Positions 34,575 through 45,662 of a DNA stretch of 64,000 nucleotides are shown here, one piece after another. The position numbers and the translations under genes are program-made. How positions within the stretch are numbered: the stretch's first letter is position 1; the number at the start of each line of letters is the position of its first letter. The notes under the pieces were generated by a model. The model had not been told where the DNA came from. It saw nothing but the letters and a program-made list of their open reading frames with translations, and made no database searches. This DNA is from Candidatus Dormiibacterota bacterium. Lineage in GTDB: Bacteria > Chloroflexota > Dormibacteria > Aeolococcales > Aeolococcaceae. The stretch lies in the NCBI GenBank assembly GCA_003162415.1, contig PMOL01000005.1, positions 341,836-405,835 of the forward strand, given 5' to 3'.

Positions 34575-36191
34575 ATGCGGCAACACGGCTGGGCGAGAAA
34601 AGCTCGCACCTTGGCCATCGGCGGCGGCGCCGTACTCGGGGTGGCGGTCGCAGGCTTTGCCACCACGATGTCCGCGTCGGCGCATTACATCATCGGGACG
34701 ACGCCACAGCCGTCCGTGGGGGTGGTGGATAAGACCGCCCTTGCCGACCAGGCGGTCGTCTATGCGGACAGCTCACGCCATGTGACCTTCTTCCTTTGGG
34801 CGCCCGGGACCTGCGGCGTTCAGGGCGCGAGCCCGGTCTTCACCGACAGCGAACCGGTCACAACGGCGTCGCTGACCGACAGCACGGTTACCTCGGGCAC
34901 CTATGTGGCCCAGGCGACCGGGACCTTCGAGTGGACCGCGGAGATCGTGATCACCAGCGGCGGTGCGATCGAGTCGGGCCCGACCGTGTGCGGCGATGAG
35001 CCGGTCACGGTCAACAAGACGCCGACGAGCATCGACACGACGCCGTCGAATGCCAGGGGTGCGCCCGTGGGCACCGCCCTCACCGACTCGGCGACCGTCA
35101 CTGGATTCAACCCAACCGGAAACGTGCGCTTCTACCTTTTCGGGCCGGACAACACGACCTGCAACTTCGAGCAGACCTCGGCGAGCGAGCCGAACGGCTG
35201 GATCTTCATGGCGGGCCCGATCGCGCTCGTCAACGGCAGGGCTAGCGTTCCTGAGCCCGGTTTCACCACGACGGCGACCGGCGTCTACCAATGGGTCGCG
35301 GACTACGGCGGTGACAGCAACAACACCGAGGCTCGGAGTGCTTGCGGCAAGGAAGCCGTCACCATCGGCAAGATGCCGACGAGCATCAAGACGCTCCCGT
35401 CGAACGCCGGCGGTGCACCTGTTGGCACGGCGCTCACGGATTCGGCAACGGTCATCGGCGACAACCCGACCGGCAACATCCGTTTCTACCTCTTCGGCCC
35501 GGGCAACTCGACCTGCAACTTCAACCAGACTTCCGCCGGTGCTCCGCACGGCTGGATCTTCATGGCTGGGCCGATCGCGCTCGTGAACGGCAAGGCCAGC
35601 GTTCCTGCGCCCGGCTACACCACCACCGAAATTGGCGAGTACAAGTGGGTTGCCGACTACGGCGGTGACAGCAACAACACCGAAGCACGCAGTGGCTGCG
35701 ACAAGGAAGTCGTCACCATCGGCAAGCACTCGGATGGGCTCACCTCGACTCCGTCGGCCGGGGGAGTCACCGGTACCGTGATCTTCGACACCGTGAAGGT
35801 CTCGAACGGCATGGACCCCGGTGGCACGGTGACGTTCTCGCTGTACAGCCCGACTGACACCACATGCGGCGCTACCGCTATCTTTACCAGCACTGTTGCG
35901 CTCGGGGCGAACGGAACCGCAAGATCCGCGAGCTTCAGCGGAACGAAGACCGCGGGCACATACAACTGGATCGCGATCTACAACGGAGACGCGAACAACG
36001 TCAGCTCCAACGACAAGTGCGGCGATGAGCCGGTGCGCATCACCGCGGTGACCAGTGGCGTGCAGGGCATCACGACCCCGGGCACCGGCGTCGGGTTCCC
36101 AGCCGCTCCCGCAATGGGCCTCCTGCTCGGTGGCCTCGGCCTGACCTCCGTCGCAGCGGCGGAGATCCGGAGGGTGCGCCGCCAGAGCTAA
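34575..36191 (+). CDS. Secreted surface protein with tandem Ig-like domains and C-terminal GVQGITTPGTG/TM/basic tail
   Basis: Signal peptide; repeats ending WVADYGGDSNNTEARSxCxKE; C-term GVQGITTPGTGVGFPAAPAMGLLLGGLGLTSVAAAEIRRVRRQS. Confidence 0.75.
   Translation: MRQHGWARKARTLAIGGGAVLGVAVAGFATTMSASAHYIIGTTPQPSVGVVDKTALADQAVVYADSSRHVTFFLWAPGTCGVQGASPVFTDSEPVTTASLTDSTVTSGTYVAQATGTFEWTAEIVITSGGAIESGPTVCGDEPVTVNKTPTSIDTTPSNARGAPVGTALTDSATVTGFNPTGNVRFYLFGPDNTTCNFEQTSASEPNGWIFMAGPIALVNGRASVPEPGFTTTATGVYQWVADYGGDSNNTEARSACGKEAVTIGKMPTSIKTLPSNAGGAPVGTALTDSATVIGDNPTGNIRFYLFGPGNSTCNFNQTSAGAPHGWIFMAGPIALVNGKASVPAPGYTTTEIGEYKWVADYGGDSNNTEARSGCDKEVVTIGKHSDGLTSTPSAGGVTGTVIFDTVKVSNGMDPGGTVTFSLYSPTDTTCGATAIFTSTVALGANGTARSASFSGTKTAGTYNWIAIYNGDANNVSSNDKCGDEPVRITAVTSGVQGITTPGTGVGFPAAPAMGLLLGGLGLTSVAAAEIRRVRRQS
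35016..35723 (+). repeat. Two tandem 354-bp (118 aa) Ig-like domain repeats
   Basis: AAG-ACG/ATG-CCGACGAGCATC begins at 35016 and 35370; units highly similar at DNA and protein level. Confidence 0.85.
36057..36191 (+). other. Putative C-terminal protein sorting/anchoring signal (copy 1)
   Basis: GVQGITTPGTG + hydrophobic segment + EIRRVRRQS basic end; same motif at 42561. Confidence 0.55.
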
Positions 36192-36382: not shown

Positions 36383-37339
36383 TCAGGCGGTCTGAGGTCC
36401 CCAATCGCCGAGATCGAACGCCTCGAGGACCGACTGTGCCTCCGCGGTTTGAGCGGGGGTAAGCCGGCGCGTGAACTGGGTTGCCTGCTGCTCACGCCGG
36501 CTGCCCGAAGTCGTCGCGGTGACGGCGTTCGGGTGGACCTTCACCGTGCCGTGATGCACCGTGAACTTGGGGTCTTCCGACTCGGTGAGGTATTGCTCCA
36601 TGGCCGCCGACCACTGCAGTCCTATGCGCGCGGTCAGTGCTTGAAAGCTCGTCATCGGGTCGAGACACAACTCATCGTGCGACGCAACGATCCAGGAGGG
36701 ATGGCGGTCGGCTGCGTCTTTGAGCGCGCGCGTCAGCAGTCCAACGTTCCAGGCGGCGATCCTCACCGGTGACGATGTGCCGTTTGGCGACTCGAGACCG
36801 AGCGAGCTCAGATATCGCTCTCGAACGACGGGATGGTTGCCGATGGCATGCTCGCTCCACATGCCGAGCACCAGCCAGCTGGAGACGATGTTGAGCGGGT
36901 TGCGACGGAGGATGATCACCGTCGGCGAGTACCGCTCCGCGATCCAGTCCAGCGAGAAGATCGAGTTGACCGACTTCACGACCACGTGGCGTGGGCGACG
37001 GCGCGTGAAACGCGTGCCCTCAGCCAGGCCGGCAACGAGGTAGTCACGCATCACCGGCGGCACATGCACCAACCGGCGCCCCGCAGCACGGGCTGACTCG
37101 ACCTTGTCCCACGGCCACCCGCCGGCGAACGCGAGGTCCCAGATCAGCCGGTACCAGTAACTTGAGTCGCCTGCCTCGAGGACCGGGTATTCGCCGAGTC
37201 GCGTTGCGGCGACGGCCCCCAGCACGTCCGAGTTGTGCCCGTCCGGCTCGTACACGATGCGGGTACCCATGGCGTGTCCCAAAACATTCGCGGCCCACGT
37301 GCTTCCGCAGCGTGCCGCCCCGGCAACCAATACCTTCAT
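36383..37339 (-). CDS. Sulfotransferase family protein (subfamily A, copy 1)
   Basis: MKVLVAGAARCGSTWAANVLG (5'-PSB-like), ILRRNPLNIVSSW (3'-PB-like). Confidence 0.82.
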   Translation of the reverse strand: MKVLVAGAARCGSTWAANVLGHAMGTRIVYEPDGHNSDVLGAVAATRLGEYPVLEAGDSSYWYRLIWDLAFAGGWPWDKVESARAAGRRLVHVPPVMRDYLVAGLAEGTRFTRRRPRHVVVKSVNSIFSLDWIAERYSPTVIILRRNPLNIVSSWLVLGMWSEHAIGNHPVVRERYLSSLGLESPNGTSSPVRIAAWNVGLLTRALKDAADRHPSWIVASHDELCLDPMTSFQALTARIGLQWSAAMEQYLTESEDPKFTVHHGTVKVHPNAVTATTSGSRREQQATQFTRRLTPAQTAEAQSVLEAFDLGDWGPQTA

Positions 37340-37674
37340 GGGCTGGTCGGGTTCGGAGCGACCGTCGCCACCGGCAGCGCAGCAGGTTGAGCAGGCTGCT
37401 TCGTCACCTGCTTCGCGCGGTGCGGCTTGGCTGCCCTCGCGTCGCAGGCCTGGTGATTCTTGGTGACGACGCATGGCTTCGGCAGCACGAGCGGCGCTTG
37501 GTTGAGCGGCGCTGCCGTGTACTGAGCGGACGCGGCGTTGGAGGGAGCGGCGGCACTGCCGGCCGCCACGATCACCCCAGCCAGGGCCGCCACGATGAGC
37601 ACACCCGAGCCGGCCGCAGCCGTCACGGGCGAGCGCGAGAAGTCGAACCACTTGATCATGGATGCGACGCTCAT
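37336..37674 (-). CDS. Small secreted/membrane protein of unknown function, coupled to sulfotransferase and exporter
   Basis: 112 aa; one TM helix (GSGVLIVAALAGVIVAAGSAAA), CVVTKNHQACDA Cys pair, Pro/Lys tail; 4-bp overlaps with both neighbours. Confidence 0.65.
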   Translation of the reverse strand: MSVASMIKWFDFSRSPVTAAAGSGVLIVAALAGVIVAAGSAAAPSNAASAQYTAAPLNQAPLVLPKPCVVTKNHQACDARAAKPHRAKQVTKQPAQPAALPVATVAPNPTSP

Positions 37675-41843: not shown

Positions 41844-42698
41844 ATGGGCGTCCGGGCGGGAGGTCTGCTGCGTCGAGCCGGCGCACTCTTGATTCTGACT
41901 GCGGGCGTTTTCCTCTTCACCATCGGCATGTTGCCGGTACAAGCCGCGGCCCGGCACGCCAAGTCGGCACCGACGGCGCCTTCGTGTGGTCATCAAGCCA
42001 ACCTCAACGATCCGACCAACTCGACCAACAAGGTGCTGGAGAGCTACTGGTTCGCGATTGAGCATGCGGGCCAGACGACAACGGTATGCACGCTATTCGG
42101 CAACGTTTCTGCGGGGGACGTCGTCACAGGGCACTTCACCCTGATGCCTTCAACGCCGGCGCCCGGGGCCGCGGGACCCGAGATCACCCTGGTCAGCAAC
42201 ACCGCGTCGAGCAGCAGCACACAGCAGGCCCTGTTCGACTGCGCGAGCTACAGCGCAGGAGCCGATCCCACTACAGCTGGCGACCCCTGCCTCGCGGCGA
42301 CGACGCAGGTGCTCACGGTGCATGTGCCCGATTGCGCGTTCCAGGTTGATCTCATCTACGGCGAACCGCTGACCGCGATGACCATCGGCCAGTACCGTTC
42401 GGAGCATCGCTGGGTGGATGGACAGGTCGGTGACCGGTCGTCAGCGTGCACCTCTCCGACTCCCACACCTACTCCGACACCAACGCCGAGTCCCACCGGG
42501 TCGGTATCTCCCGCGACCAGCTCGCCAACTCCGGCGACCAGCTCGCCAACTCCGGTCGGTGGCGTCCAGGGCATCACGACTCCAGGGACGGGGTCCGGCG
42601 GGATCATGCTTCCGCTGATCGGCCTGGGGCTCGTCGGTCTCGGTATCGCAGCGATCGTGCGGAGCTCGCGTCGCTGGCCTTCGCCACCGACCCCGTAG
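41844..42698 (+). CDS. Secreted protein with Pro/Thr-rich stalk and C-terminal GVQGITTPGTG/TM/basic tail
   Basis: N-terminal signal peptide; PTPTPTPTPSPTGSVSPATSSPTPATSSPTPVGGVQGITTPGTGSGGIMLPLIGLGLVGLGIAAIVRSSRR. Confidence 0.75.
   Translation: MGVRAGGLLRRAGALLILTAGVFLFTIGMLPVQAAARHAKSAPTAPSCGHQANLNDPTNSTNKVLESYWFAIEHAGQTTTVCTLFGNVSAGDVVTGHFTLMPSTPAPGAAGPEITLVSNTASSSSTQQALFDCASYSAGADPTTAGDPCLAATTQVLTVHVPDCAFQVDLIYGEPLTAMTIGQYRSEHRWVDGQVGDRSSACTSPTPTPTPTPTPSPTGSVSPATSSPTPATSSPTPVGGVQGITTPGTGSGGIMLPLIGLGLVGLGIAAIVRSSRRWPSPPTP
42513..42554 (+). repeat. In-frame 21-bp x2 tandem repeat encoding ATSSPTP stalk
   Basis: GCGACCAGCTCGCCAACTCCG repeated twice directly. Confidence 0.85.
42561..42698 (+). 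other. Putative C-terminal protein sorting/anchoring signal (copy 2)
   Basis: GVQGITTPGTG identical to copy at 36057, followed by hydrophobic helix and SSRR tail. Confidence 0.55.
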
Positions 42699-42750: not shown

Positions 42751-43752
42751 ATGAGCGATCCTGGAGCAGGCCGCGTCCTCGTCGTAAGCTCGCCGCGGTC
42801 CGGCAGCACCTGGACCCTGCGCGCGCTCTCGTGCGCCGAGGGAACGTCGTTCGTTCGTGAGCCGGACAACGTCGATACAGCCGCTTCGGTGCAGACGGGA
42901 GTGACGCGACTCGGGTTCGGCCCCTACCCGGTTCTCGAGGCCGGCGACGCTGCCCCCCAGTATGCGGCGCTGTGGGATCTCGCATTCCAGGGACGACGAG
43001 CCCTGGCATTGCGGCGCGGCTGGGGGCGGCGAGTGACGCGCGCCGTCTTTCGACTCCCGCGCCCGGTGCGCGATCCGCTGCTCAAAGTTGCCGCCCGCGG
43101 GCTCGGTGCGGTGGCCCCGCGCCGATCCCACGTCGTGGTGTCGTCGGTCATGGCCCACTTCTCGGTAGAGTGGATTTACGAGCGGTTTCACCCGAGTATC
43201 GTCGTGCTTCAGCGCGATCCTCTTAACATCGCGTCGAGCTGGCTACGTCTCAACGTCGACGCTTTCGACGTGCACAGCCGCCCGGCGATTGTGGAACGCC
43301 ACCTGCGCCCGCTCGGCGTCGAGCCTCCGCCGCATGGCGCCTCGAACGTGACGCTGGTCGGATGGTGGATCGGCGCGCTCGCGACCCAATTGGGGTCGCT
43401 GGTCGACCGGCATCCTGATTGGATTCTTGCCACTCACGAGGATCTCTGCGAAGCCGCGGAGACGCGCTTCGGTGATCTCTATGACCGCCTTGGGCTGATC
43501 TGGACGCCGGAAACCGAAACGTATCTCCGTGAAGGCGGCTACATCGAGCCGCTCTTTCGAGGAGGAGAGAACACCTTCACCGCGTCCGCCGTGGGCATCG
43601 ACGAGGCGAGCCGTGTGCGGCGCGAGCAGGTAGACGCCTGGCGCACGCGGCTCACTCCGGACCAGCAGTCGGAGCTGCGCACGATTCTCGCGACATTCCC
43701 CAATCGCGGGTGGGTCAGGCCTCGCGAAGCCTCATCTGCCCGACCATCCTGA
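42751..43752 (+). CDS. Sulfotransferase family protein (subfamily B, copy 1)
   Basis: VLVVSSPRSGSTWTLRALS, EPDNVDTAAS, GFGPYPVLEAGD, VVLQRDPLNIASSW. Confidence 0.82.
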   Translation: MSDPGAGRVLVVSSPRSGSTWTLRALSCAEGTSFVREPDNVDTAASVQTGVTRLGFGPYPVLEAGDAAPQYAALWDLAFQGRRALALRRGWGRRVTRAVFRLPRPVRDPLLKVAARGLGAVAPRRSHVVVSSVMAHFSVEWIYERFHPSIVVLQRDPLNIASSWLRLNVDAFDVHSRPAIVERHLRPLGVEPPPHGASNVTLVGWWIGALATQLGSLVDRHPDWILATHEDLCEAAETRFGDLYDRLGLIWTPETETYLREGGYIEPLFRGGENTFTASAVGIDEASRVRREQVDAWRTRLTPDQQSELRTILATFPNRGWVRPREASSARPS

Positions 43753-44687: not shown

Positions 44688-45662
44688 TCAAACCTCGACG
44701 GGTGGCACCCCCCAGGCGCCCAGGGGGAGGTCTTCAAGCACCGCGCGCGCCTCGGCGACCTGCGCGGGCGCGAGGCGGCGTTGATACTGCGTCGCCTGCT
44801 GCATCCGCCGGCTCGTGCCGTCCGCCGCGGCCGTCTGCTGATTTGGGTGTGATCGTGGATTGGCACCGGTGACGACGAACGCCGGGTCATCGGCGGCCTC
44901 GAGGTATGCCTTGACTCGCGGCGTCCACGGTAACCCGAGTTGAGCGAACAGCGAGGTGAACCCTTCGTACGGATCATTTGACAGATCGTCGTGCGAGATC
45001 ACGATCCATTCCGGGTGTCGCTCCGCACTCTCTCTGAGCGCGACGGTGAGCACGCCCACCGTCCAGGCGACCTGGCCGACTCGCGACAGGCCCCTTGCAG
45101 GCTGCCCGAGCCCGAGCGGTGAGAGCCAGAGACGCCGGACTGCCGGGTTGTCAAGTGGGTCTGGCTCGATATTGAGTGCCATCCAGCTGGAGACGATGTT
45201 AAGGGGATTGCGCCGCTGGATCACCACCCGCGGGGCGTACCGCTGGGCGATCCATTCCAGGGAGAACCCGCAGTTCGCTGACTTGACGATGACGTGAGGC
45301 TGACGCTGTGGCACCGTCAGCGCGATGGTTTGCGCCAGCACCGCGACCCCGTGATCGCGAAATGCGGCAGGCGATTTGGAGAGTCCACGGCCGAGCCTCC
45401 GGGCCGAAGGAGACCGGCTCCATGGCCAGCCTCCGGCGAACGCGAGATCCCACACCATCGAGTACCACGAGGATGCCTCGCCCTCGTCGAGTGCGGGGTA
45501 CTCGCCGAGCCTGTTCCGGACGACGGTGCCCAGAATGTCCGTGTACGGGCTGTCCGGCTCGAATACGTTGTGAATCCCCGGCGACTGGCCAAGCACATTG
45601 GCCACCCAGGTCGAACCGCACCGGTGCGTGCCGGCGATCAGGATCCGCATACTGGATCGCAT
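44688..45662 (-). CDS. Sulfotransferase family protein (subfamily A, copy 2)
   Basis: MRILIAGTHRCGSTWVANVLGQSPG, EPDSPYTDILG, WYSMVWDLAFAGGWPW, VIQRRNPLNIVSSW. Confidence 0.82.
   Translation of the reverse strand: MRSSMRILIAGTHRCGSTWVANVLGQSPGIHNVFEPDSPYTDILGTVVRNRLGEYPALDEGEASSWYSMVWDLAFAGGWPWSRSPSARRLGRGLSKSPAAFRDHGVAVLAQTIALTVPQRQPHVIVKSANCGFSLEWIAQRYAPRVVIQRRNPLNIVSSWMALNIEPDPLDNPAVRRLWLSPLGLGQPARGLSRVGQVAWTVGVLTVALRESAERHPEWIVISHDDLSNDPYEGFTSLFAQLGLPWTPRVKAYLEAADDPAFVVTGANPRSHPNQQTAAADGTSRRMQQATQYQRRLAPAQVAEARAVLEDLPLGAWGVPPVEV

Follow-up and report, generated by a model that had tools for sequence, protein, structure and literature searches.

Why should two otherwise unrelated proteins encoded in one stretch of bacterial DNA end in the same 11 residues, GVQGITTPGTG, followed in each case by a hydrophobic stretch and a basic tail? 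The stretch analyzed here (the window, 64 kb in all) belongs to a 3.69-Mb Dormibacterota MAG. The features on which the argument turns are as follows.

34575..36191, + strand: carrier of copy 1, a secreted protein of 538 aa with Big_3_5-like Ig repeats (Big_3_5 E 2e-7, under the curated cut-off)
34575..34682, + strand: signal-peptide-like N-terminus of the copy-1 protein (MRQHGWARKARTLAIGGGAVLGVAVAGFATTMSASA..), read by eye from the translation
36057..36089, + strand: GVQGITTPGTG copy 1, with the sortase-type core TPGTG at 36075-36089
36090..36188, + strand: copy-1 hydrophobic stretch and basic tail (EIRRVRRQS)
41844..42698, + strand: carrier of copy 2, a second secreted protein, 284 aa, with no domain over cut-off
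42561..42593, + strand: GVQGITTPGTG copy 2, with the core TPGTG at 42579-42593
42594..42695, + strand: copy-2 hydrophobic stretch and basic tail

A tail shared by two proteins

The original prediction held that the two proteins, though unrelated, share an identical motif set in the tripartite layout of a C-terminal sorting signal, and both parts of this claim are borne out. Motif, hydrophobic stretch and basic tail are present in each protein (the reading frame at 34575-36191 ends in GVQGITTPGTGVGFPAAPAMGLLLGGLGLTSVAAAEIRRVRRQS), and the only significant BLASTP alignment between the two proteins lies at the motif, with 12/13 residues identical. The hydrophobic/basic tail of copy 2 differs from that of copy 1, whereas the 11-mer is identical; both proteins start with a signal-peptide-like segment, as read by eye. 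In the DNA, 6 of the 11 codons differ between the copies, all silently, so the shared 11-mer does not stem from recent copying of the DNA.

These are the only [TV]PxTG tails in the window, and the pattern QGxTTPxTG has exactly two matches in the 3.69-Mb genome, both of them here; its reversed control has none. The bare TPxTG DNA pattern, with 154 matches in the same genome, does not rise above its reversed control, so that the pentapeptide is uninformative without the context of a tail. This genome has a third member of the tail set, in a protein that contains 11 Big_3_5 repeats and ends in VPDTG.

The motif had also been described as unlike any recognized signal. This stands insofar as no Pfam or NCBIfam tail model comes near its cut-off for the tail: of the curated CTERM sorting models, Firmicu-CTERM alone responds, with 11 bits where 50 are required, and the Gram_pos_anchor model (PF00746) gives 10 weak matches across the genome, none above cut-off. 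It fails for the core, since TPGTG fits LPXTG except that P4 is Thr instead of Leu. Judged by its sequence, the repeated tail is thus a credible predicted C-terminal sorting signal of the LPXTG type, not unlike known motifs, and the part of the 11-mer outside TPGTG is best described as a putative, looser upstream consensus.

Two further observations concern the gene content of this genome. Sulfotransferase-like genes lie near both tagged proteins, at 36383-37651 (-), 42751-43752 (+) and 44688-45662 (-); the three look mutually similar, with GSTW near the start and an RRNPLNI/QRDPLNI motif. Elsewhere, a long secreted-type protein (L288, G000:C3:147500-151500) ends in APPNTG-helix-RRRHRMSGSG and may be another sortase substrate, in this case with Pro in the P4 position.

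Conservation in the genus and the order

Orthologues from four further species of the genus carry the exact GVQGITTPGTG at their C-termini. An orthologue in G029 reads GVKGITTPGTG and a relative of the copy-2 protein in G030 reads GVQAISTPGTG; hence the 11-mer is not invariant, and the constant core is TPGTG. A scan of 84,980 genomes with GVQGxTTPxTG returned 6 loci, 5 of them from four Candidatus Dormiibacterota MAGs. A Corynebacterium pilosum locus matching this pattern is a chance frame of 20 codons and was discarded, as were matches in G033 and G094 from a class-wide pattern search, which are not C-terminal signals.

A tail profile, built from 7 tails and then from 22, was searched against the family and the order. 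The pattern extends well beyond the two proteins of the window and lies at the C-terminus: more than 100 such tails were found in the order, a count to which orthologues contribute, on open frames spanning about 100 to >2,000 codons. Their consensus is V-x-[GA]-[IVA]-[ST]-[TV]-P-x-T-G-[AS], followed by a hydrophobic stretch and an R/K tail. Among 123 fetched tails, the core P is present in 121, the T in 116 and the G in all 123; P4 is occupied by T 80 times and by V 34 times.

To keep this answer from being built into the profile, the search was repeated with P4, the first core position, masked. The 111 order tails recovered have T (70, 63%), V (33, 30%), A (3), D (3), I (1) or P (1) at P4 and Leu in none. 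In this tally two apparent LPxTG entries are downstream mis-picks in tails with the core TPGTG and are counted as T. Because the upstream flank of the masked profile was learned from [TV]PxTG tails, the search under-represents LPxTG tails that have different flanks. One LPFTG tail is present in the source genome.

Applied to a 301-genome sample of the phylum at E<=3e-4, the masked profile matched in 16 genomes, 14 of them in the order. Of the two genomes outside it, one belongs to another Dormibacteria family and has a LANTG tail; in the other only the helix was matched. No [TV]PxTG tail turned up outside the order in this sample. Dormibacteria outside the order have LPxTG or LAxTG tails adjoining their sortases.

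An orphan class-E-like sortase

The original prediction correctly saw neither a sortase nor an exosortase in the window; two sortases and one exosortase lie on other contigs of the genome. We refer to the sortases by contig as the C3 type and the C15 type. The C15-type enzyme (G000:C15:104487-105200) is solitary. PF04203 recognizes it at 69 bits against a cut-off of 26.6, and the catalytic His, Cys and Arg are present. Its best NCBIfam class is E, but NF033747 scores only 51-59 bits where membership requires 160, making the enzyme class-E-like and not a class E member by this test; its best match among solved structures is 5go6 (E 1.8e-8).

Orthologues occur in 47 of the 50 order genomes, a few of them only as fragments at contig edges. 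All 33 orthologues compared share His143, Cys201 and Arg210, and they likewise keep HREP, V[TS]QL and a further pair of cysteines, C85 and C167; A[FLV]HREP is a signature of the family. Outside the order the C15-type sortase was found in G073 alone, which also has [TV]PxTG tails. This genome belongs to another family, and its order-type sortase and TPxTG tails lie on the short contigs C147, C179 and C202 (L265, L257, L134); they reflect either contamination (9% for the bin) or transfer.

Which enzyme might read the tail?

In two relatives a tagged gene lies directly upstream of the C15-type sortase on the same strand, a TPSTG gene in G010, where the copy runs off the contig end, and a TTPNTG gene in G005; in G008 an APNTG gene lies downstream of it with one gene between. 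In the source genome the C15-type sortase adjoins no TPxTG gene. G018, 98% complete, has neither this sortase nor the tails. Eight order genomes with the sortase yielded no tail at E<=0.003; in one other a tail is present without the sortase. Incompleteness is responsible for some of these cases. A Fisher test of co-occurrence is confounded by shared ancestry, and we use the counts alone; because the joint distribution of sortase and tail follows one clade, it is weak evidence of function. Taking anatomy, conservation and gene adjacency together, we are fairly confident that the tail is an LPXTG-type sorting signal whose core is [TV]PxTG, most likely read by the C15-type orphan sortase.

The tail could instead be a sortase signal read by the C3-type enzyme, or by both, given that both are encoded in the genome and that sortases can accept related motifs. 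We regard this as unlikely: the C3-type sortase has a dedicated neighbor, an Ig-like protein ending in LPFTG directly downstream in the source genome and one ending in LPPTG directly downstream of its counterpart in G031 (loci G000:C3:162145-162495, L001, and G031:C39, L062); the C15-type sortase alone was detected in the motif-bearing G026 and G030, whose bins are 75-76% complete; and it is this enzyme that adjoins the TPxTG genes of G010 and G005. Still less likely is processing by the exosortase of this genome (PF09721, E 2.2e-19) as a PEP-CTERM-like signal. A motif-helix-basic layout is common to exosortase signals, and VPDTG presumably resembles VPDSG-CTERM, but PxTG is a sortase cleavage core, the [TV]PxTG genes of relatives adjoin sortases, and the product of the exosortase-adjacent gene ends in PVPEVP-helix-RRR, unlike [TV]PxTG. 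The C3-type sortase and the exosortase thus both seem to have substrates of their own. We give very little credence to the view that the tail only anchors the protein in the membrane, or is a C-terminal segment spread by shuffling, and that no enzyme processes it. The hydrophobic stretch would anchor a protein without cleavage, and orthologues account for part of the tail count; against this, the pentapeptide is far better conserved than the helix, as the counts of its P, T and G attest, the motif is identical where helices differ, and the tails sit on frames of very different lengths.

The exosortase (locus G000:C3:103973-104776, L286) has 561 aa, and its best specific NCBIfam models fall far under cut-off. 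With the adjacent secreted-protein gene, whose product bears the PVPEVP tail, it may therefore form an undescribed exosortase-substrate pair.

Proposed mechanism

Returning to the C15-type sortase as the reader of the tail, we posit that the N-terminal signal peptide would export the protein, and that the C-terminal hydrophobic stretch and basic tail would hold it in the membrane. A membrane-bound sortase, most likely the solitary class-E-like enzyme G000:C15:104487-105200, could then cut TPGTG between Thr and Gly and join the cut protein to the cell wall. How the enzyme would select its substrates can be framed by known structures. In SrtE1, a β3/β4 Tyr is proposed to favor Ala at P3, and SaSrtB has a β6/β7 Thr in contact with a polar residue at P4 (PMC5148588). 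At the apparent position of the SrtE1 Tyr, members of the orphan family carry Tyr or Trp, yet the putative substrates have Pro at P3. V[TS]QL, located before the catalytic Cys, is invariant in the family, and it is our guess that this stretch shapes a Thr/Val pocket.

With less assurance, we lean toward a broader reading, in which the order relies mainly on a [TV]PxTG code, extended upstream by Vx[GA][IVA][ST]. Its reader would be a new sortase subfamily (marked by A[FLV]HREP and two extra cysteines) with a P4 pocket that has changed from accepting Leu to accepting Thr/Val, and an LPxTG sortase and an exosortase would work beside it in the cell as separate systems. Searches for the tail could pick out surface proteins in an uncultured soil order, the P4 specificity of sortases would be widened to Thr/Val across an entire order, and the enzyme would be a candidate for protein ligation orthogonal to LPXTG enzymes. 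Its candidate specificity regions are the stretch with the invariant V[TS]QL that precedes the catalytic Cys and the loop ahead of the catalytic His.

Comparison with known sorting systems

The putative signal shares with LPXTG signals and sortase A (PF00746, PF04203) the PxTG core, the hydrophobic stretch, the basic tail and a genome-encoded sortase, and both window proteins have, by eye, a signal-peptide-like N-terminus. It differs from them in having Thr/Val rather than Leu at P4, an extra upstream Vx[GA][IVA][ST] and no PF00746 match above cut-off. By NCBIfam score and solved structures the closest class is the class E sortases with LAXTG signals, such as Streptomyces SrtE1 (PMC5148588), but the orphan enzyme falls far under 160 bits, and its presumed substrates keep Pro at P3 with Thr/Val at P4.

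Searches of the literature, with subscription journals and preprints outside their scope, returned no TPXTG, no sortase with VPXTG and no sortase with Dormibacter. Isolated TPKTG anchors have been predicted before, and an order-wide [TV]PxTG code is not found in the literature searched. Clostridioides difficile SrtB reads SPKTG (PMC4371152), I/TPKTG proteins are recorded on C. difficile mobile elements (PMC6814731), and one predicted TPKTG anchor is noted in group A Streptococcus (PMC1949102). The SPKTG signal and the predicted TPKTG anchors resemble the tail described here in placing a polar residue other than Leu before PxTG; they involve, however, a class B sortase or single proteins of mobile elements, whereas the [TV]PxTG tail appears to be the prevailing code of an order that has a distinct chromosomal sortase.
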